A stretch of 42,568 bases of DNA from positions 1 to 42,568 of the IMG/VR virus record IMGVR_UViG_3300022751_000006; one strand, 5' to 3'. Shown in pieces: positions 10,105 to 41,120 of this stretch. The notes under the pieces are model-generated. The model was not told where the DNA came from, ran no database searches, and saw nothing but the letters and a program-made list of their open reading frames with translations. The position numbers and the translations under genes were made by a program. Position 1 is the first letter of the stretch. Every line of letters begins with the position of its first letter. This DNA comes from a virus.

Positions 10105-10632
10105 TTATAGAGCAATCTTCCGATTCTTCCGCATAACCGCGATGACCAAGAATGCTAAAAGGCTCATCCACATTTTCCCGATAATCTGCCCCTCTATATA
10201 TGCGAGCGATCCGAAGGCCAGCCAAAGAAACACGGCGCTATCAACAACCGACCCGACAATGCCACTGGCCAAAACCGCTATCCCTAGACGCTTCTTACGG
10301 AGCGGAGCGTACACTGCGAGGTCCGCGAGCTCAGACAAGGTGAATGCCAGAACTGATGCAACGACTAGCGCTGATGGTGCTAGCCACCAAGATAGAATGC
10401 CGCCCAACGCAATCGCAGCAAGAGCCGCGCAAGCCCCAAGACGCTCATGCACTATATCGCGCAAGACAAGCGCCGATCCTACCATCAAAACCCCAGATGG
10501 GGCCATTAGTCCGAACCCCACAGGGATCAAATGCGGCTCCATAGGTCCAAACTGAACCCCTATGTTTCCAATAAGCCAATTTGCCATCGGGATCGTCGCC
10601 GCGAACGCAGCAAAGGCTAAATATCCAATCAT
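10105..10632 (-). CDS. yhhQ: YhhQ/VUT-family queuosine-precursor transporter
   Basis: 175-residue integral membrane protein with about six hydrophobic segments. Family signatures are APSGVLMVGSALVLRDIVHE (residues about 44-63), ALVVASVLAFTLSELADLAV (about 88-107) and SGIVGSVVDSAVFLWLAFGS (about 123-142). The family imports 7-deazaguanine precursors such as preQ0/preQ1 across the inner membrane. The start overlaps the stop of the DpdA-like gene (ATGA), so transporter and transglycosylase are made together. This suggests the phage supplements host 7-deazaguanine supply for DNA modification. Function is by family; no biosynthesis genes are present. Confidence 0.88.
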   Translation of the reverse strand: MIGYLAFAAFAATIPMANWLIGNIGVQFGPMEPHLIPVGFGLMAPSGVLMVGSALVLRDIVHERLGACAALAAIALGGILSWWLAPSALVVASVLAFTLSELADLAVYAPLRKKRLGIAVLASGIVGSVVDSAVFLWLAFGSLAYIEGQIIGKMWMSLLAFLVIAVMRKNRKIAL

Positions 10633-11309
10633 GCTGTCAACTCCATCTGCTCAGGTTGATCATGCCATTTTCCAGGCGTTTGCATAGCGTCCCATCGATC
10701 TGCCATAGATCGCGGGGTATTCTGTGGTCGGTTATGGTTTTGCGCTACGTCAGTGCTGTCTACAGAGGCGAATGGGTAGTGCTTGCCACTGAGCTGCATA
10801 CCGCGAAGCATGTGCAGCCACGGAAGCCGTGAATGCCTTTGTGATATCTCTCCCCATATTTGGTCCATCCTCCGCTTCCATGGGTCCGATAGCACCACAG
10901 CATATTCATCAGTGCTGCCTACACAAACCCTTTGCCATTTGTCCGTTAAGGCCAGAAGCCGATCTAGAGGTTCATCCATATGCCAGACTGGAGCCCCCTT
11001 TTGCCCATGAGGCCATTCCTTGACCAACGCGTCTTGCAGTTGAGAACCGCCGTCCACAACGTCAGGAATAACAGCCCATGTCGTCGGGAAATTCAGCCAC
11101 TCATCGCACCAATCGTAAAACTTATTCCAGTCTGGCTGATAACCGCGTTTCCACGCTGAGAACGCCCCATTATCCAACATGACGGACTGACCGATCAAAT
11201 GCACTCTTTTCACATCATGAGGCGCGGCATGGGATACACAGAAATGGCGACCGTGCATTTCGTATAGAGCAGCTACTGGTGTTATTGGTGTTCCGTGATA
11301 GTGGATCAA
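10629..11309 (-). CDS. dpdA: DpdA-like 7-deazaguanine DNA transglycosylase
   Basis: 226 residues related to tRNA-guanine transglycosylases in the phage DpdA style. Landmarks are MLDNGAFSAW (D46), the loop IPDVVDG (D83), PVWH (107-110), RVCVGSTDEY (127-136), LHMLRGM (165-171) and YPFASVDST (178-186). DpdA enzymes swap guanine in DNA for a 7-deazaguanine base, which protects phage DNA from restriction. It is shorter than cellular TGT, as phage DpdA proteins often are. It lies directly before the YhhQ transporter with a 4-base overlap and after a DUF5131 gene three positions upstream. The base actually inserted cannot be told from sequence. Confidence 0.82.
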   Translation of the reverse strand: MIHYHGTPITPVAALYEMHGRHFCVSHAAPHDVKRVHLIGQSVMLDNGAFSAWKRGYQPDWNKFYDWCDEWLNFPTTWAVIPDVVDGGSQLQDALVKEWPHGQKGAPVWHMDEPLDRLLALTDKWQRVCVGSTDEYAVVLSDPWKRRMDQIWGEISQRHSRLPWLHMLRGMQLSGKHYPFASVDSTDVAQNHNRPQNTPRSMADRWDAMQTPGKWHDQPEQMELTA

Positions 11310-11884: not shown

Positions 11885-12164
11885 TTCTAATCCTCTCTGC
11901 TAGGTCTTGCTCTAGGCGGTCTAGGTTGGTCATTCCCATGCTGCGCTGCTGTGTGTTTTGTACCCAGCTTGGTTCTATGGATTGCCAGCCTTTCTCGATC
12001 ATCATCTCAGCGGCGGCGTTCGGGTCGGGACATGCTGCCAGCTTCTTAGCCAAGAGCTTTGCTGCGAAGTCTGTCATGGGCTTTCGAAGGCGCTGGCGGT
12101 GTTTGATTAGCTCCTCTGCTAAATCCGCCTCTACGGTTGTCTCTAGCCATTGGCGGGGGGTCAT
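11823..12164 (-). CDS. Hypothetical protein, possible replication-protein C-terminal module
   Basis: 113 residues. The segment TDFAAKLLAKKLAACPDPNA followed by MIEKGWQSIEPSWV looks like the C-terminal module of phage replication/loader proteins, where a helical pair precedes a GW-rich end. ATGA overlap with the DUF5131 gene upstream; its last 20 codons overlap the next gene. Function unproven. Confidence 0.55.
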   Translation of the reverse strand: MTPRQWLETTVEADLAEELIKHRQRLRKPMTDFAAKLLAKKLAACPDPNAAAEMMIEKGWQSIEPSWVQNTQQRSMGMTNLDRLEQDLAERIRNGTRSQGSLDLASVPRLSGR

Positions 12165-12985
12165 TCTTTTGCTCCAGGATACCCGTCATGGTGCACGCCA
12201 TTGAGTGCGCGTCCAGCTTCTTTTTTATTCCGGACGTGCTGCATATTCTCGTCCCAATTGCCCCATTGCTTGAACAGGAAGGGCACGCCTGCTTCCGCGC
12301 ACTGGTCGCGTAGCTGACGAAACCAGTCTGGATCGGCTACGCGAGCGTGCGGCCCGCTCTCGCCACCTGCGATGACCCAATCAATCCCATTCATGCCGTC
12401 GAGATGGCCTGTTGAGCCGTTGCTGGATATTTCCTGCCATTCTGCCCAGCGAAACGAGACAGGCCCAACCATCGGCTCTATCGAAAGAAACCTCACCGCC
12501 GAATCGTGCTTGAGCAGATGCGGAATGTTCTGATCGGCGCGCAACTGATCTTCAACGGTGGTGCCCAGCCAGACAGAACCCTTGATGTCATCCCAATAGG
12601 CTGGCAGCATCTTCTCGATGTTCTGGGGGCGTTTGGTCAACAACAGCCAATTCAGATCGGGACACTCACGAATGAGCGCCCACAGATCATCGCGCCATGC
12701 GGTATCAATCTGGTTGTCGAACACATCGGCCATAGATGCGCAAAACACCCGGCGCTTGCGGCCATGCTCTTCCATGAACTCACCAGCCTTCTTTTGCCAA
12801 CGGCGCGGCTCATTCCAATTCTTCTCGCTGGTGCGCCGCCTTGGCACATTCCCCCAATGGTTGCCGCCCGTTCGCTTGTCGAGATCAGCCGCATAGCAAT
12901 GATCACACGCGGGGCTGATCTTGGTGCAACCCCACCACGGATTAAATGTGCTATCCGTCCACTCAATTCCCGTACTTTCTGCCAT
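12161..12985 (-). CDS. Phage Gp37/Gp68 (DUF5131) Cys-motif protein
   Basis: 274 residues of the phage Gp37/Gp68 family. Characteristic features are WTDSTFNPWWGC (9-20) and the cysteine motif C20...C27-x-x-C30-YA, then FCASMADVFD (about 81-90), WLLLTKRPQN, VWLGTTVEDQ, RFLSIEPMVG, DWVIAGGESG and PFLFKQWG. The three-cysteine pattern and barrel-like motifs resemble radical-SAM-type proteins; the reaction is not established. AAGGAGAGAGAG precedes the ATG. It opens the operon that leads into the loader-like, DpdA and YhhQ genes, so involvement in DNA base modification is a reasonable guess but not shown. Confidence 0.88.
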   Translation of the reverse strand: MAESTGIEWTDSTFNPWWGCTKISPACDHCYAADLDKRTGGNHWGNVPRRRTSEKNWNEPRRWQKKAGEFMEEHGRKRRVFCASMADVFDNQIDTAWRDDLWALIRECPDLNWLLLTKRPQNIEKMLPAYWDDIKGSVWLGTTVEDQLRADQNIPHLLKHDSAVRFLSIEPMVGPVSFRWAEWQEISSNGSTGHLDGMNGIDWVIAGGESGPHARVADPDWFRQLRDQCAEAGVPFLFKQWGNWDENMQHVRNKKEAGRALNGVHHDGYPGAKE

Positions 12986-13020
12986 CTCTCTCTCCTTGTT
13001 TCAGACAATACTGATCAATT

Positions 13021-13595
13021 AAGACGTAGGGTGAGGATGGTACAATCCCCGCGCCTTTGTCTCTGCACACTGTTCAGTCGCTATGCAGCCCACTGCATTT
13101 TATCGTCACGGTCGATGCAGGATGCTCCCTGCGGCTCTAAGGGCAACCGACTGCCCGGATATTAGACCCTAAGGCCTATTCTCACCACTCACTGTCGTTT
13201 ATCGCGTTCGTTGCCGACGCGCGGCTGTCTTGAGGCCGAATTCATGGGCTGTAGGCACGGCGTGAGGATTTAACCTCCCAAGCCGATTAAGTGTGGCTTT
13301 ACGCCAAAGGTACACCGCTTCGCAGCTTGGCGACCTAATGGCTTCAACAATATCTGGGTAAGGGCTTGAACCAAAGTGCTAGACTTGGTATTTAAACCTT
13401 ACCGAATGTGTTTTACCCACTTCGGTCATCGTTCAGGAGCCTTGTGAACTCGCTGAACGCCTTCATTTAGAGGGATATCCCCTCAATAGTCAAGAGGCTC
13501 GCTCCGTTCATTCGTGGCGGGCCTCATTGCTTCAGAGGATAGGATGGGGTAGTATCTGCATATGGACGCCACAAGCCAACGGGATGATCACTCGT
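13021..13595 (+). ncRNA. Structured noncoding RNA region
   Basis: No credible protein in 12986-13773. The plus strand holds a succession of helices. A 9-bp pairing GGTGAGGAT/ATTCTCACC (13030-13038 with 13178-13186) encloses hairpins at 13083-13098 (ATGCAG/CTGCAT), 13117-13132 (GCAGG/CCTGC) and 13141-13156 (GGGCA/TGCCC). A three-way junction is closed by GGCGT/ACGCC (13259-13305). Further stems lie at 13357-13403 (GGTAAGG/CCTTACC), 13401-13426 (ACCGAA/TTCGGT, an alternative to the previous one), 13430-13459 (CGTTCAG/CTGAACG) and 13470-13484 (GAGGG/CCCTC). A G-U pair in the first helix favours the plus strand. It runs into the tRNA-like element. RNA family unknown; limits approximate. Confidence 0.6.
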
Positions 13596-13686
13596 TGCGA
13601 TGTAGCTCAGGGGCAGAGCAGCGGGAGTGGACGACTGATCCTCGTCTAGCCCGTATGTCGGGGGTTCGATTCCCTCCATCGGTCCA
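13596..13686 (+). tRNA. tRNA-like element with an extended anticodon arm
   Basis: It has a standard D arm (GCTC AGGGGCA GAGC), a perfect T arm (GGGGG TTCGATT CCCTC, 13660-13676), a 5-base variable region, and an encoded CCA (13684-13686). The acceptor pairs GCGATG with CATCG but fails at the outer positions. Where a 5-bp anticodon stem with 7-base loop is expected, there is a 12-bp arm: GCGGG/CCCGT (13621-13625 with 13649-13653), a small AG/G bulge, then TGGACGA/TCGTCTA, capped by CTGATCC. If the cap is read as an anticodon loop it gives GAU. C at position 37 and the weak acceptor argue against a normal tRNA. G-U pairs fix it to the plus strand. Confidence 0.6.
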
Positions 13687-13720
13687 TCTCTAATCCCATC
13701 CTAAGCCCTCTTAATACCCC

Positions 13721-13770
13721 ACCCAACGGCCCGGATAGCTTATAACAGCCTCCGGGCCTATTTGTTGGGT
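13721..13770 (+). terminator. Terminator-like hairpin after the noncoding RNA
   Basis: Inner stem GGCCCGGA/TCCGGGCC (13728-13735 with 13751-13758) followed on the plus strand by TATTTGTT, and an outer 7-bp pairing ACCCAAC/GTTGGGT. The minus-strand side has no T-run, so it most likely ends the plus-strand RNA; it may also stop the minus-strand gene that ends at 13774. Confidence 0.6.
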
Positions 13771-13773
13771 AGG

Positions 13774-14118
13774 CTACTGGTTGATTTCTGGAAACAAGGC
13801 TAATGCCATTTCTTCGCCGTCGCTTGATTCGTAACCAATTGGCTTCCAAACGCTCCTGACATAATCAAAGACGCCATGAGGATCTGGATTATGTTTCTGC
13901 ATGATGGCTTCGCAGTTTACATAATTCGTCGGGCATGAGTGCTCATCGAAATAGTACGATTCGTCCAATGGGTCATTTCCGCGATTCCTCGAATCATCTA
14001 TCGCGCTGCCTGACACCACGAAATACACTGGATCGCCATCGGAATCGTATAGCTTGAGAAGAGATAGCGTCTCGTATTGGTTCGGGTGTGATGGACCTAC
14101 AGGGATTCTCTCGGCCAT
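13774..14118 (-). CDS. Hypothetical acidic protein
   Basis: 114 residues, MAERIPVGPSHPNQYETLSL..., acidic, Tyr/Asp rich, ending ALALFPEINQ. It starts 1 base after the preceding stop and is the last gene of its group before the noncoding region. No family recognised. Confidence 0.7.
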   Translation of the reverse strand: MAERIPVGPSHPNQYETLSLLKLYDSDGDPVYFVVSGSAIDDSRNRGNDPLDESYYFDEHSCPTNYVNCEAIMQKHNPDPHGVFDYVRSVWKPIGYESSDGEEMALALFPEINQ

Positions 14119-14436: not shown

Positions 14437-14793
14437 TCATAGAGGGGTGTAAGATCGGATTTCAGCGCACCAACCATCACAGTCTCCCCATTCCAGGGTG
14501 ATGTGTTCGGCTAGGCTGTCGTCATCAATGACCTTGTGGGCTACGAGGAGGTCTAGAATTGCCTTCGCGCCATGATTGTCGAGGTCTGAGTTCTTCCGCC
14601 GCTTCTTTCGGCTTAGGATGATGGAGATGGAGAAAGGGCCGGTGATTGATCCTTTGCCTACGCAATCCCAACCCGCCGCGCTAGCCCATTCTCGGTAACG
14701 CTTGGTCCTGACACGCCCCCTCCCTGCCACGTTGGCAAAGAGGGAGTTCGTGCTAGGAGGATAGTGCTCGCTGGTGATTGTGACGACGCTCAT
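14437..14793 (-). CDS. rusA: RusA-type Holliday junction resolvase
   Basis: 118 residues from ATG 14793 (TGATG overlap with the gapR stop). The RusA layout is clear: PPSTNSLF near the N-terminus, GPFSISIIL, the catalytic region SDLDN with D70 and D72, and DLLVAHKVIDDDS with D91. These three Asp positions coincide with the catalytic Asp70, Asp72 and Asp91 of E. coli RusA, whose length (120) is also matched. It would cleave branched recombination intermediates before packaging, alongside Erf and NinB from the other cluster. Confidence 0.93.
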   Translation of the reverse strand: MSVVTITSEHYPPSTNSLFANVAGRGRVRTKRYREWASAAGWDCVGKGSITGPFSISIILSRKKRRKNSDLDNHGAKAILDLLVAHKVIDDDSLAEHITLEWGDCDGWCAEIRSYTPL

Positions 14794-15038
14794 CACGCCA
14801 TCCCCAGAGCCGACATATAAAGCTCAAGAAGGGCTTCATTTTCCAGTCGCTCATTCGCATCCATCTTGCGGATTTTGACGATCTGGCGAAGGATGGCTGT
14901 ATCGAAGCCATTTCCTTTCGCGTCGGAATAAATCTCTTTCAAATCTTCCTTGTATTCCGCAATCTCTGTCTCAACGTGTTCAATGCGTTCGATGAAAGCG
15001 CGCAGCTGATCCTGTGCGACTGAGTCTTCAACGGCCAT
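14793..15038 (-). CDS. gapR: GapR/DUF2312 nucleoid-associated protein
   Basis: 81 residues from ATG 15038, which has AAGGA 7 bases upstream; an in-frame extension would overlap the previous gene. Full-length match to the DUF2312 pattern: an N-terminal coiled-coil helix (QDQLRAFIERIEHVETEIAE), then KEIYSDAKGNGFDTAILRQI, VKIRKMD and the end LLELYMSALGM. GapR of Caulobacter encircles overtwisted DNA ahead of replication and transcription and favours AT-rich DNA. A phage copy could support phage replication or compete with host GapR. Family is near certain, role inferred. Confidence 0.92.
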   Translation of the reverse strand: MAVEDSVAQDQLRAFIERIEHVETEIAEYKEDLKEIYSDAKGNGFDTAILRQIVKIRKMDANERLENEALLELYMSALGMA

Positions 15039-17577: not shown

Positions 17578-18067
17578 TCTGGACGTTCATTTTCTAGAGC
17601 AGGAAATCGTCAAGCTTGTTGCCGAATTCCCTGAGCTTGCGGAAGACGACGCGTTAAAAGCTGATGTGATCGAAGGGCAGCTAGACGTTGAAGCTGTCAT
17701 GACTCGCGTACTATCGCATCTTTTCGAGGCTGAGGAAATGCTTGACGGCATGAAACCGCGCTTTGAGGATTTGAGCGAGCGTAAGAAGCGCTGGGAGCGA
17801 CGGAAGGAGTTTTGCAGGACATTGGCCCAGCGGGTGCTAGAGGCGTCTGGTCGCCCGCGCATCGACCTTCCTGAGGCCTCTGTGTCGAAACAGGCGGGCA
17901 AGGAAAGCGTGGAGATCACGAACGTTGATGACCTCCCGCAGGGTACATATGCTACCGAACGCAAGCCAGACAAGAAGGCTATTGGCGAGCAATTGAAAAC
18001 CGGGAATGATGTTCCTGGAGCCCGCCTTGTGATGGGCGCGGATGGGGTGAGGATAAACACGAAGTGA
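17564..18067 (+). CDS. Gp157-like protein (siphovirus Gp157 family)
   Basis: 167 residues. An N-terminal helical part and a long coiled coil (EMLDGMKPRFEDLSERKKRW) precede the family's C-terminal beta part: PDKKAIGEQLKTGNDVPGAR then RINTK. Gp157 proteins usually neighbour single-strand annealing or recombination genes, and here the gene lies directly before erf with a GTGA overlap. It probably assists recombination or replication; the mechanism is not known. Confidence 0.85.
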   Translation: MARIDLDVHFLEQEIVKLVAEFPELAEDDALKADVIEGQLDVEAVMTRVLSHLFEAEEMLDGMKPRFEDLSERKKRWERRKEFCRTLAQRVLEASGRPRIDLPEASVSKQAGKESVEITNVDDLPQGTYATERKPDKKAIGEQLKTGNDVPGARLVMGADGVRINTK

Positions 18068-18717
18068 TAACACATAGCGAAAGCATCAAATCAATCGCAG
18101 CCGCCCTATTCACATTCCAAGGGGCTGTGGATGGCGTCGAGAAGAACAAGGTCAATCCGGGATTCAAATCCCGATACGCCAACCTAGAGGCCGTGCGCGA
18201 TACAGCCGTTCCAGAGTTGCAGAAGGTCGGCCTGCTCTACACCCAATCTCCCGGCGCGATTGTTGATGGAGTAATGGCTGTCACGACCATGCTCATTCAC
18301 GCCGAAAGTGGCGAGTGGATGAAGTTTGAGGGCGATATTGCCTTGGGCAAGCGCGATCCTCAGGGTGTCGGCTCTGCGATCACGTATATGCAACGATACT
18401 CGCTTATGGCGGCTCTTGGGCTTCCTCCGGTGGATGATGACGGGGAAGGAGCAATGGAGCGGACGCCGCCTAAGCTTACTCCCTCCAAAGCCCCTACAAG
18501 GCCCGTAGAGAGCCCCAAGACATTTGCCGCCTATGGAGCCACGATTACGGCGGCAAAGACGCCTGATGCCCTCAAGGATGCGTTCGCGGCTATATGGAAA
18601 TCATCTCTGTCTCAGGAAGACAAGGATACACTCAAAACGGCTTACGAGGCGAAGAAGGTCGAACTAGCCAGCGGTTATGTCGCTCCAGACTTCAGCAACA
18701 TGGGAGATGGGCAATGA
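18064..18717 (+). CDS. erf: Erf-family single-strand annealing protein
   Basis: 217 residues from a GTG overlapping the previous stop (GTGA). The Erf domain is visible at residues about 5-125: ALFTFQGAVDGVEKNKVNPG, KSRYANLEAVRDTAVPELQK, MKFEGDIALGKRDPQGVGSA and ITYMQRYSLMAALGLP followed by DDDGEGA. The C-terminal tail is Pro/Lys/Thr rich then helical. Erf proteins anneal single strands and in P22 circularise the incoming genome; here it fits a circularly permuted, headful-type genome. Neighbours are Gp157 upstream and NinB downstream. Confidence 0.92.
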   Translation: MITHSESIKSIAAALFTFQGAVDGVEKNKVNPGFKSRYANLEAVRDTAVPELQKVGLLYTQSPGAIVDGVMAVTTMLIHAESGEWMKFEGDIALGKRDPQGVGSAITYMQRYSLMAALGLPPVDDDGEGAMERTPPKLTPSKAPTRPVESPKTFAAYGATITAAKTPDALKDAFAAIWKSSLSQEDKDTLKTAYEAKKVELASGYVAPDFSNMGDGQ

Positions 18718-34783: not shown

Positions 34784-35797
34784 TCAGGGCACGGAATCGT
34801 ACAAGCGCCAGGAGTACTGAGGATCACCCAATACAAGCTGGCCCATCCACACCAAGAAGTTTGCGATGGCATCTTGGTTGATTGGCATCTGACCGTCGCC
34901 ATCAAACAGCATGTCCATGTTACGATCCGGGTGCTGATAGAGGTACAGCGAGGACGAATCGAGGCCATAGGTGGTGTTTGCAGGCATTGCCGAACGGATA
35001 CCGGCAGCCGGGATAACTTCGGCCACAAAGCCCGCACCGGCAAATTCAAGGGCCGGGAAGCCAAGGCGACCAACGCGGCCCTGAGTGGTGATGCGCTGAT
35101 GGGCAACAAGCGACTGCGAGAACGCCGTAAAGTGTTCAGCAGATGCAATCAGAAGATCAGCACCCTTACGGCCCTTCGAACGCTGAAGCATGATGGCTTC
35201 ATACATTGGACGGATCGTGGTGGAATCAACCTGTGTGCCAATCGTCGGGAATGCCGAGTTTGCATCGTAGGACGAGGTGCGCCAGATGGCATTGGTCGAA
35301 CGGTCAATGCCGCCATACGTACCAGCATTCGTCACAACCGGGAGGGCTGCGGCAAGACCGATAAGCTGACGCCCATTGGAGCCAGTACCGTCACCGTGGA
35401 CAGCAGCCTCCATGGTATCGCGCATGGAGCCGATGGCGGCGTTCTGGTACTCTTCCATCAGATCGATGACCTGCGCACGGCCACGGTTTACCAGCAGTTC
35501 CGTGCCATTGAAGGAAATCGGAACGGCGAGGTTCGTGGGCGTAAAGTACGCGTCATTGAACAGTTCGATGGGGGAGTTGCGGAGGTAATCGTACCCCGTA
35601 AACCACTGTCCATCCTGCTTGTTGATCTGGAGGTGATGGCGGATTTCGGGGCCGTAGAAGCTCCGAACATTGCCACGTTCACGAATGACCGCCAAAACGG
35701 GGTCATTGTTGTACACCAGTTCCGTAATGCCTTCTTTGCGCATAGCCATAGAGGCAGATAGAAGCTGGCGATACTGACGGTCGGTAGTGACTGCCAT
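34784..35797 (-). CDS. Major capsid protein
   Basis: 337 residues. Placed after the scaffold and in the canonical portal-scaffold-capsid order. The N-terminal helical region (RQYRQLLSASMAMRKEGITE, LVYNNDPVLAVI) is followed by a basic/Gly-rich loop, an alpha/beta domain (IRPMYEAIMLQRSKGRKGAD, LLIASAEHFTAFSQ) and a late TYGLDSSSLYLYQHPDRNMD segment, consistent with the HK97 fold. No strong similarity to P22 gp5 is visible (it is shorter). The composition is Ala/Asn/Gly/Thr rich without long low complexity. Confidence 0.85.
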   Translation of the reverse strand: MAVTTDRQYRQLLSASMAMRKEGITELVYNNDPVLAVIRERGNVRSFYGPEIRHHLQINKQDGQWFTGYDYLRNSPIELFNDAYFTPTNLAVPISFNGTELLVNRGRAQVIDLMEEYQNAAIGSMRDTMEAAVHGDGTGSNGRQLIGLAAALPVVTNAGTYGGIDRSTNAIWRTSSYDANSAFPTIGTQVDSTTIRPMYEAIMLQRSKGRKGADLLIASAEHFTAFSQSLVAHQRITTQGRVGRLGFPALEFAGAGFVAEVIPAAGIRSAMPANTTYGLDSSSLYLYQHPDRNMDMLFDGDGQMPINQDAIANFLVWMGQLVLGDPQYSWRLYDSVP

Positions 35798-38552: not shown

Positions 38553-38758
38553 TAAATGTTTCCTTCTGGAGGCAATGGATCGGGCGCATCAGTACTGAGA
38601 GCGCCGGTTTCATAGCGGATATTCATGATTTCGATGGACTCAGTAGGAGCATCGAGAACCAGTGGATAATTGTTCTGCTGGCCCTTATCCGTGGTGATTC
38701 CAAGCTTGCCAGGGTAGGCATACGACACATTACGGAGACCAAGCCTATTTCTGCGCAT
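38552..38758 (-). CDS. Small hypothetical protein after portal
   Basis: 68 residues: MRRNRLGLRNVSYAYPGKLG then NNYPLVLDAPTESIEIMNIR. It overlaps the portal stop by 14 bases and shares its stop with the next start. Function unknown. Confidence 0.7.
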   Translation of the reverse strand: MRRNRLGLRNVSYAYPGKLGITTDKGQQNNYPLVLDAPTESIEIMNIRYETGALSTDAPDPLPPEGNI

Positions 38759-41120
38759 CAGGATGCTCCCTTGCTTCCTGAGCAGCGCGTTCGGCCTGCT
38801 GTTCCTGCTGCTGAAGCTTGGCCCACTCCAGTTCAGTCTTGGTCACAAGCTCATCGCGCCTGAAATTCTCATCGAGAAGCATTTGAGCGCTTTCGGTCTG
38901 TGCTCGCTGCGCCTCTAGCGCCGCCTCGGCATCCAAGCTCATCTGGGCTGTCTGCATATCCGCCTGAAGCTGTGCCGATTCACGAGTGACAGCCACTTCA
39001 GCATCGAGACGTTTGGCCTGTGCGTTGCCTTCAGCCTTGATCTGTTCCTTCCTGGCTTCAGCCTGTGGGCGCTGCTGAATTTCCTGCGCCTTGAGGGTTA
39101 GCTCGGCTTCCTTGAGCTTCAACTCCTGAGCGCGGAACTGGTTTTCTGCCTGCGCCTGAGCAAGCGAGGCCTGTAGCTTCTGCATTTCGATCTGCATCTT
39201 CTGCTGATCCAGCGCAGCCTGCGCCTTTAGCTTTTCAGCCTCAGGATTGGGCTGTTGCGGCTGGTTCTGAAGGCTTTCGACCCATTCATCAATGGATGCG
39301 TCAACCTCACGCCCCGCACGGTACGGACCAAGTTGAAACTTGAGCAAAGACCCTGCCAGATTAGCACCAGCAGCCCCACTCATAACCAACGGAGCCAATG
39401 CAGCCGATGCAGCGGCGAAGGTCTGCATATACTCGTTACGGCTTGCCTTCTCAGCCTGCTCATCAGGATAGATCGTGGAATCGGTCTGAATATCGAAGTC
39501 GGCAAACCCGGTCTTCTGTTCAGCCAATAGCTCCTTAACATCTTCCTGCGTAACAGCCTTACCCAACTTATCGATGATAGGCTGGAACTTGGCGAGAATG
39601 GCTTGCTGAGCCTGCTGGAACTGCTGCTGTGCCTCCTGTGGGTTCTGCTGGGCTTCTGGAGCCTGTAGCGCCTCCTCTGCCTTATCAGCAAGTGCCGTTA
39701 ACTCTTTCTTAGCGCCATCCTTAATGTCGGATAGCTGCTTCTTGATCTCAGATCGCTTTGGAAGCTCCATACGGCTCATTTCGAGCAGCGTGTCGAAGTT
39801 GAACTCCTCAGCCTGGATTTCGCTCATGATCTGGAGCGTATCGCGGCCAATACGAACCAACTCAGCAATCTTGTCGCGAATGCGGACAGAGCCGAACTGT
39901 GCCTTGAGTTTCTGAGCCCCTAGCGTTTCCTGTGCTTCGGATTCACCGCGCATAATGTCAGCAACGCCAAGAAGCTCCTGAACATTGCCGATAAGCTCTC
40001 TACGTGCCTCTACAGCCGAGATGAGAGCCTGAGCAATCATGTCGATAGGCAACCAGTCCACATACTTGCTGGCCGTATTGAACGCAGCAGCCGGGACAGG
40101 GATGATCATGTGATCGGCGTCGAGATTACGATACGCCGTTTCCAGCGCGTCACCCACATCAGAGCCAGCCGGGATAATGCCGCGCACCACGAGCTTTTCA
40201 CACAGCCCATGAATACGAGACGTTAGCTCATTGATGCTCTCTAGTTGATCCTCGATATAGACAATATCAGGGACAGGGACGAGCGAACGGCGCTCTAGTG
40301 TGGCATAGGCAGGGCGGGGGCATGGGAAGAAGTTCTTGAGCTTAAGGAATGGGTCTTCCTCATCCAAAACCTCATCGCAGCCCTCCGCAACCCAATAGAC
40401 CTTGCGATCTACCTTGGACCAGATTTCCCAGAACCCAGCCTTAGGCGTGTTATCGACCTCTTCGCCGCGCTCATCCTTATGCTGTCCATAGGATGCATTA
40501 TCGGCCTTATCGCCAAACCGCTTCGTGGCCTCTTTCTTGGTTAGCCAAGCGCGACGGGCAACCCAGCCAACATCAGCCCATTTCCGAGCCGGTTCGTGCA
40601 GGAAATCCTTGCGGTCCAGATGCTCAATGCAGACGCGTTCGCCATATGGTTTTGCATCATCGCCCGATTCATACGTGCACCAGATAACGCCACGCGCAAC
40701 AATTGCTAGATCGTCACGAACGCCCAACATCACCTGATCAATGTCAGAGATGGAAAAGCCTCTTACCGCACACCGCTCCAGCATTTCGGAGCCAGTGCGA
40801 ACGATAGGGCTTCTGTCCTTGAATACAGGCGTTACAACCGGAATAGGAGGCCGGGAATAGATGGATGGCTTAACCACTTCCATCGACGCCCAGAATAGAT
40901 TGAACTCGTGGTCAAATATCCCGCCATTGCCATAGAACGATGACCACGTATCGAGGTTGGCGTATAGCTTATCAATCCGGTCGGCTTTGGACTGATAGGC
41001 GTTAAACTTCTTCTCTGCGTTCTTGATGGCAATGAGCAGCCGCTTGGAGGACGTTGGCTCTAGCGCCTCATCCTCGCTCATTTGATCTTCGTATTGCGGC
41101 TCACCTTGGTAATTTGCCAT
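38745..41120 (-). CDS. Portal protein
   Basis: 791 residues. The portal body (1-460) includes NLFWASMEVVKPSIYSRPPI, QVMLGVRDDLAIVARGVIWC, KDFLHEPARKWADVGWVARR and IEDQLESINELTSRIHGLCE, then a helical LIGNVQELLGVADIMRGESE segment, as in large podovirus portals. Residues about 460-530 and 630-790 are charged coiled coils rich in Gln, Ala and Glu, like the long barrel of P22-type portals. The twelve-subunit ring is the packaging and ejection channel and the anchor for terminase and the adaptor. First head gene after the tailspike. Confidence 0.93.
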   Translation of the reverse strand: MANYQGEPQYEDQMSEDEALEPTSSKRLLIAIKNAEKKFNAYQSKADRIDKLYANLDTWSSFYGNGGIFDHEFNLFWASMEVVKPSIYSRPPIPVVTPVFKDRSPIVRTGSEMLERCAVRGFSISDIDQVMLGVRDDLAIVARGVIWCTYESGDDAKPYGERVCIEHLDRKDFLHEPARKWADVGWVARRAWLTKKEATKRFGDKADNASYGQHKDERGEEVDNTPKAGFWEIWSKVDRKVYWVAEGCDEVLDEEDPFLKLKNFFPCPRPAYATLERRSLVPVPDIVYIEDQLESINELTSRIHGLCEKLVVRGIIPAGSDVGDALETAYRNLDADHMIIPVPAAAFNTASKYVDWLPIDMIAQALISAVEARRELIGNVQELLGVADIMRGESEAQETLGAQKLKAQFGSVRIRDKIAELVRIGRDTLQIMSEIQAEEFNFDTLLEMSRMELPKRSEIKKQLSDIKDGAKKELTALADKAEEALQAPEAQQNPQEAQQQFQQAQQAILAKFQPIIDKLGKAVTQEDVKELLAEQKTGFADFDIQTDSTIYPDEQAEKASRNEYMQTFAAASAALAPLVMSGAAGANLAGSLLKFQLGPYRAGREVDASIDEWVESLQNQPQQPNPEAEKLKAQAALDQQKMQIEMQKLQASLAQAQAENQFRAQELKLKEAELTLKAQEIQQRPQAEARKEQIKAEGNAQAKRLDAEVAVTRESAQLQADMQTAQMSLDAEAALEAQRAQTESAQMLLDENFRRDELVTKTELEWAKLQQQEQQAERAAQEAREHPDAQK

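Follow-up and report, generated by a model that had tools for sequence, protein, structure and literature searches.

A conserved, folded RNA element in a mosaic island of RNA and tRNA-like units shared by four tailed-phage contigs

A gap without protein genes at 12986-13773 of the window, by which we mean the whole IMG/VR contig of 42,568 bases from a tailed phage, contains at 13277-13459 a core of about 180 bases that, as judged from its sequence in four phages, is a genuine folded RNA element. The core comprises a terminal hairpin (H1), a long irregular hairpin (LH) and a third hairpin (H4), and the pairing of H1 is kept by compensatory change in all four phages. The locus is noncoding, matches no known RNA family other than tRNA, and its core is apparently a phage RNA element not described before, set in a mosaic island of RNA and tRNA units. 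On balance, we lean towards reading the gap as a modular island whose main piece is a new structured RNA, about 460-480 nt long, which would lie on the minus strand with H1 and LH at its 5' end.

The gene-free gap and its relatives

The gap lies between a DUF5131 gene (12161-12985) and the next ORF (13774-14118), both on the reverse strand, and the absence of any credible protein gene between them agrees with the preliminary description of this stretch. Elsewhere, the window carries genes for a large terminase (1461-2843), a RusA-like protein (14437-14796), an Erf recombinase (18064-18717), a major head protein (34784-35797) and a portal (38745-41120). The portal is less than 50% identical to those of GenBank phages, the best matches being Microcystis and Rhizobium phages, and searches of the genome collection with the portal and the core pattern found no bacterial host. 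When the locus was compared by DNA-level BLAST with the phages and plasmids in GenBank, no credible relative was obtained; a match to Thermus P23-45 had an E value of 0.9 and was set down to chance. As a side observation, a queuosine-precursor transporter (Vut_1/YhhQ-like) adjoins a queuine tRNA-ribosyltransferase-like gene at 10105-11309 (minus strand), with DUF5131 slightly beyond, and the three could possibly form a set for 7-deazaguanine modification of DNA or tRNA.

Three further IMG/VR contigs with the locus were found via portal neighbours and exact-pattern scans: G2 (3300023104_000012, the contig behind L003 and L100; portal 90% against the window), L109 (3300023106_000013; portal 53%) and L107 (3300023181_000047), for which no portal matched and the terminase reached only 35%. 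Another pattern match, L106, fell inside a protein gene and was discarded as chance. A covariance search with our model R1 gave scores of 110-150 bits for the window, L107 and G2, missed L109 and picked out nothing else in 50 records; among the DUF5131 neighbours, its sole finds in 50 records were G033 and G002. DNA search of 25 of the 80 contigs with DUF5131 neighbours revealed no copy of the locus, and the 113-aa neighbour protein, used as a query, led back solely to L107 and L109. The family is so far known from four contigs, two of them close, with L109 assigned by inspection from its layout and H1 alone.

The same hypervariable locus is present in all four phages. Since their structural genes differ, the island seems to move between phage lineages by mosaic exchange. 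Common to all four are a hairpin at 13494-13525 and the closing terminator, and the content between these differs, being swapped and inverted from phage to phage. The window and L107 share 13276-13558 at 88%, G2 has an inverted 85-base homologue of part of this segment, behind which lie an HNH ORF, a tRNA-Gly(UCC) and a tRNA-Trp-like element, and L109 has what is probably a diverged copy in the orientation of G2. A third unit, absent from the window, was noticed in the relatives (L107 13506-13650, L100 4100-4270, L109 1636-1740), where L107, G2 and L109 have in common a 36-base promoter-like block, TTGCAC-17-TATTGT; in L107 and G2 this block is followed by a short RNA with similar ends and a variable middle. 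Tiny ORFs (ATGTCTAAATAG; MSERITTED) were seen at L109 1380-1410 and L107 12831-12860, where the other phages begin the gene after the RNA unit.

The conserved core and its strand

The terminal hairpin H1 (13430-13459, minus strand) consists of a 7-bp lower stem, an invariant bulged C, an upper stem of 4-5 bp and a short loop, and its upper stem holds a U-G pair that is invariant in all four phages (L107 13263-13290 and L100 5589-5616, both minus; L109 949-976, plus). Across the four sequences, 9 of the 11 pairs have changed on both sides and 95.5% of the cells are paired, compared to 43-49% when the partner is slid by one base and 33-49% for the slid controls overall; none of 500 shuffles reached 95.5%. 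As H1 was chosen by eye after folding and the window and L107 are close kin, this count is not to be read as a probability. The compensatory changes in four phages suggest selection on the pairing, and they answer, for H1, the preliminary description, which had named variation that breaks the pairings in relatives as the result that would speak against a structured RNA. When 740 kb of loci were scanned for a TTGAC box followed by the H1 plan, the top scores (11-12) came from the four loci plus L014 only. A MAFFT alignment of promoter and H1 misaligned H1 in G2 and was therefore not used to build a model.

The second element of the core, LH (13332-13427, minus strand), is closed by GACC/GGUC and contains an inner GGUAAGG/CCUUACC helix and an invariant strand, UUUGGUUCAAGCCCUUACC. 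A consensus fold calculated from three sequences retains it, compensatory changes being few, and by inspection 13 consecutive bases pair in the LH of L107. H4 (13278-13330, minus strand) has a CCAAGC/GCUUGG outer stem, identical in the window and L107, and an inner GUGU/ACAC helix; G2 has a different hairpin at this place. A minus-strand cloverleaf around 13350-13400 was also considered and set aside, as it has no T arm.

The preliminary description had placed the RNA on the plus strand, and here the comparison of the four phages points the other way: the core folds better in the minus sense in every one of them, with z scores of -4.4, -6.0, -4.4 and -1.2 for the window, L107, G2 and L109, compared to -2.8, -3.5, -4.1 and -0.7 in the plus sense. 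The consensus energies are close (-34.6 for minus and -32.2 for plus). Three G-U pairs on the minus strand of the long helix of L107 would read as A-C mismatches on the plus strand, and the invariant U-G pair of H1 likewise speaks for the minus strand; conversely, two pairs of H1 that are A-C in the minus sense would turn into G-U pairs in the plus sense, and the absolute energy of the G2 core is lower in the opposite sense. Weighing these observations, we hold it to be probable that the core RNA lies on the minus strand of the window, the strand being the least secure point of this account.

We infer the promoter and the start site of such an RNA from a TTGAC(T/G) box that is found 28-31 nt before H1 in all four phages and that also favours the minus strand. 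In the window, this is a promoter-like TTGACT at 13488-13493 (region 13465-13493, minus strand), followed after 16-17 bases by a weak -10 region, and H1 begins at the predicted start site. G2 and L109 read TTGACT-17-GATTAT, the -10 boxes of the window and L107 are poor, which counts for the plus strand, and in scans every promoter match on its own is near chance level. No terminator was seen on the minus strand before DUF5131, and a stand-alone RNA would thus need processing.

If the same RNA were instead read from the plus strand, its 3' end would consist of H1, a small hairpin, an AGUCAAG motif and a terminator hairpin, namely 13494-13525 in the window and, in G2 and L109, another hairpin that does have a U run. 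In G2 and L109 a true U-run terminator indeed follows the core on this strand, directly after AGUCAAG, and the hairpin of the window is steadier in the plus sense (-21.8 kcal/mol compared to -15.5 kcal/mol in the minus sense). Moreover, H1 read in the plus sense has a 7-base loop starting with CU and ending with A in L107, G2 and L109, but not in the window. The one promoter candidate for this arrangement, TTAAGA-16-TACAAT at 13019-13046, is no more than chance would give (0.8 expected) and is not matched by anything similar in the relatives, and together with the z scores and the mismatches in L107 this makes the plus-strand reading rather unlikely in our judgement, at perhaps one chance in several. 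Both strands may be transcribed. As an aside, the plus-sense loop of H1 resembles an anticodon loop with differing triplets, a likeness that may be due to chance.

The variable remainder and the plus-strand units

The gap as a whole folds beyond its shuffles on both strands, with z scores of -6.2 on the plus strand (20 shuffles only) and -3.6 on the minus strand, which bears out part of the earlier proposal of a structured stretch with eight plus-strand helices in series. Folding above chance is seen for 13276-13535, and not for the approximately 220 bases at 13053-13275, where z is -0.4 and +0.4 on the two strands, no structure beyond that of shuffled DNA was found and the sequence is unconserved. 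It is 13277-13535, together with the tRNA-like element and the terminator, that gives rise to the structure signal. A long-range helix of 9 bp, as noted earlier, is of a kind expected by chance, as the 788 bases hold 36 helices of at least 9 bp with G-U pairs allowed, compared to 29.5 +/- 6.0 in shuffles, and one compared to 0.7 with Watson-Crick pairs only. In the sole pure Watson-Crick helix of 9 bp (13540-13548 with 13695-13703), G2 and L109 largely keep the 3' arm and the 5' arm is gone. Rather than one ornate RNA of about 600 bases, as formerly suggested, the gap contains a row of separate units, with a covarying core of about 180 bases and an unconserved rest.

Behind the core, a variable remainder (12986-13277, minus strand) runs to the start codon of DUF5131 and shows, among the relatives, no similarity past its first 55 bases. 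Although the sequences past the core are unrelated across the four phages, the span between the opening base of H1 and whichever feature comes next is nearly equal, at about 474, 460, 480 and 460 bases in the window, L107, G2 and L109, where the end points are the start codons of DUF5131, of a 125-aa ORF and of HNH, and in L109 the conserved hairpin. This near-constant length speaks for a self-contained unit, or for a leader whose length is fixed; in L109 the unit is present without any gene behind it.

A leader is what would be expected if H1 and LH were a cis element of the put or nut kind, which makes the host RNA polymerase pass terminators from the 5' end of the transcript, with the variable stretch as a mere leader. 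In phage HK022, putL likewise forms two hairpins just downstream of PL (PMC9378689), and the present unit has two hairpins at the predicted transcription start and leads into a gene in three of the four phages (DUF5131, the 125-aa ORF and HNH). The likeness to HK022 put RNA, which lies in a bulged stem and in a pair of hairpins close to a 5' end that is predicted here, is one of outline only, drawn by description. Whereas put measures about 70 nt with two stem-loops, H1 takes 28-30 nt and LH about 96 nt; the orientation relative to the early operon varies, with the units of G2 and L109 facing away from it, and the constant length suggests more than a leader. We regard a put-like element as unlikely. 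A riboswitch leader was dismissed because the downstream genes are unrelated.

That the locus is decayed DNA, i.e. a recombination hot spot filled with the remains of genes and tRNAs, in which the hairpins serve as terminators and operators without an RNA function, would agree with the unstructured and unconserved 13053-13275, with the aberrant tRNA-like element described below and with content that is swapped and inverted between phages. For 13277-13459, however, such a reading is hard to hold in view of the compensatory changes of H1 in four phages, and we consider it improbable overall; for 13053-13275 it may apply.

On the plus strand, the conserved hairpin GAGGCUCGCUCCGUUCAUUCGUGGCGGGCCUC (13494-13525) is terminator-like without a full U run; the 47 bases around it are identical in G2 and L107, and L109 differs by one change (U-G to C-G). 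It is followed by a weak promoter-like pair, TTGCTT-17-TAGTAT (13527-13555), which precedes the tRNA-like unit; L107 and L109 have the same -35 box and 17-base spacer, then TAGTAT and TACAAT, respectively, with only 7-8 of 12 matches.

The tRNA-like element noted in the preliminary description was recovered at 13598-13681 (plus strand) with 38 bits against the Rfam tRNA model (RF00005; gathering threshold 29). With its CCA at 13684-13686 it spans 13598-13686, and its minimum free energy fold is a cloverleaf. ARAGORN missed it by default and called it solely when an intron was allowed. In common with phage tRNA genes, it has the cloverleaf, normal D and T arms and the CCA; it differs from them in an acceptor of 5 bp instead of 7 bp, an anticodon arm distended to 5+7 bp instead of 5 bp with a 7-nt loop, and an anticodon loop, CUGAUCC, with a C instead of a purine at position 37. 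It is probably not an ordinary elongator tRNA, and we doubt that the copy in the window functions as a normal tRNA. At the same slot, the element of L107 is another one, weaker and without a match in Rfam, and G2 (L100 4386-4533, minus strand) has the tRNA-Gly(UCC) and a tRNA-Trp(CCA)-like element with D loops of 3-5 bases and intact acceptors and CCA, both missed by ARAGORN. As these elements differ, the slot appears to hold tRNA-like RNAs that vary between phages. A canonical tRNA-Gln(UUG) was seen elsewhere in the L107 phage (5718-5791, minus strand). The plus-strand unit closes with a G+C-rich terminator hairpin (13727-13765, -20.0 kcal/mol), GGCCCGGAUAGCUUAUAACAGCCUCCGGGCC followed by UAUUUGUU, which corresponds to the terminator-like end reported earlier and is near-identical in all four phages, i.e. 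in the window and its three relatives.

Known RNA families and a possible role

The window and its relatives were searched on both strands with Rfam 15 at gathering and relaxed thresholds, and nothing except tRNA was matched; the models for GOLLD, ROOL, HEARO and group I and II introns gave no match, in line with the earlier inability to assign the locus to GOLLD or ROOL. GOLLD and ROOL RNAs occur near tRNA islands, and GOLLD combines a conserved 3' region with a less conserved 5' region (PMC12286853). The present unit resembles them in being phage-borne, in lying beside tRNA or tRNA-like genes (the tRNAs of G2 included), in having a conserved and a variable part and in lacking protein-coding content. 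In contrast to GOLLD, with its universally conserved 3' region and many members above 800 nt, the unit measures about 460-480 nt, roughly half, and its conserved end would probably be the 5' end if the minus strand is right. No elaborate fold is evident, the covarying core being about 180 nt, and while ROOL and GOLLD are characterised by a homo-oligomeric nanocage, the phage unit is known here from its sequence. A large ornate RNA of the GOLLD or ROOL type, for which no Rfam model matched even at relaxed E-values, is accordingly the least probable of the explanations considered. The unit of G2 directly precedes an HNH ORF, as HEARO and group I introns with HNH ORFs might suggest, but there is no Rfam match, the HNH of G2 is an ordinary phage HNH and it is missing at this place in the other three phages; an intron was also rejected because no exon halves were seen.

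Under the reading that we favour, the gap would be an RNA island of modular build, situated in the early region of the genomes of a mosaic tailed-phage group. Its main unit would start with H1 and LH (13459 down to 13277, minus strand), continue as a fast-evolving stretch to the next gene and have its promoter beside the conserved hairpin 13494-13525; a plus-strand unit carrying a tRNA or tRNA-like RNA would diverge from it on the other side. The step from structure to mechanism is one that we infer throughout: the H1-LH domain would fold once RNA polymerase clears the promoter and might, as a weakly held suggestion, act by the shape that it gives to the 5' end of the transcript. Of the two forms that this could take, we find a domain within an independent phage RNA likelier than a leader acting on the polymerase like put or nut.

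To our knowledge, covariation has been used to establish only a small number of phage RNA families, and most of the large ones are without a known function. More speculatively, the four loci may represent a new phage RNA family of about 470 nt with a fast-covarying 5' hairpin, a fixed bulged C and U-G pair, and an invertible island that swaps aberrant tRNAs; such an RNA may steer RNA polymerase or counter host defence, e.g. as a decoy for RNA-cutting enzymes. The hairpin sequences turn over almost wholly between related phages while the shape stays, next to a slot in which tRNAs and tRNA-like elements are exchanged, and this pattern is what is expected for an RNA under fast selection, e.g. in conflict with the host. 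With about 180 nt, the core is compact enough for testing at the bench.
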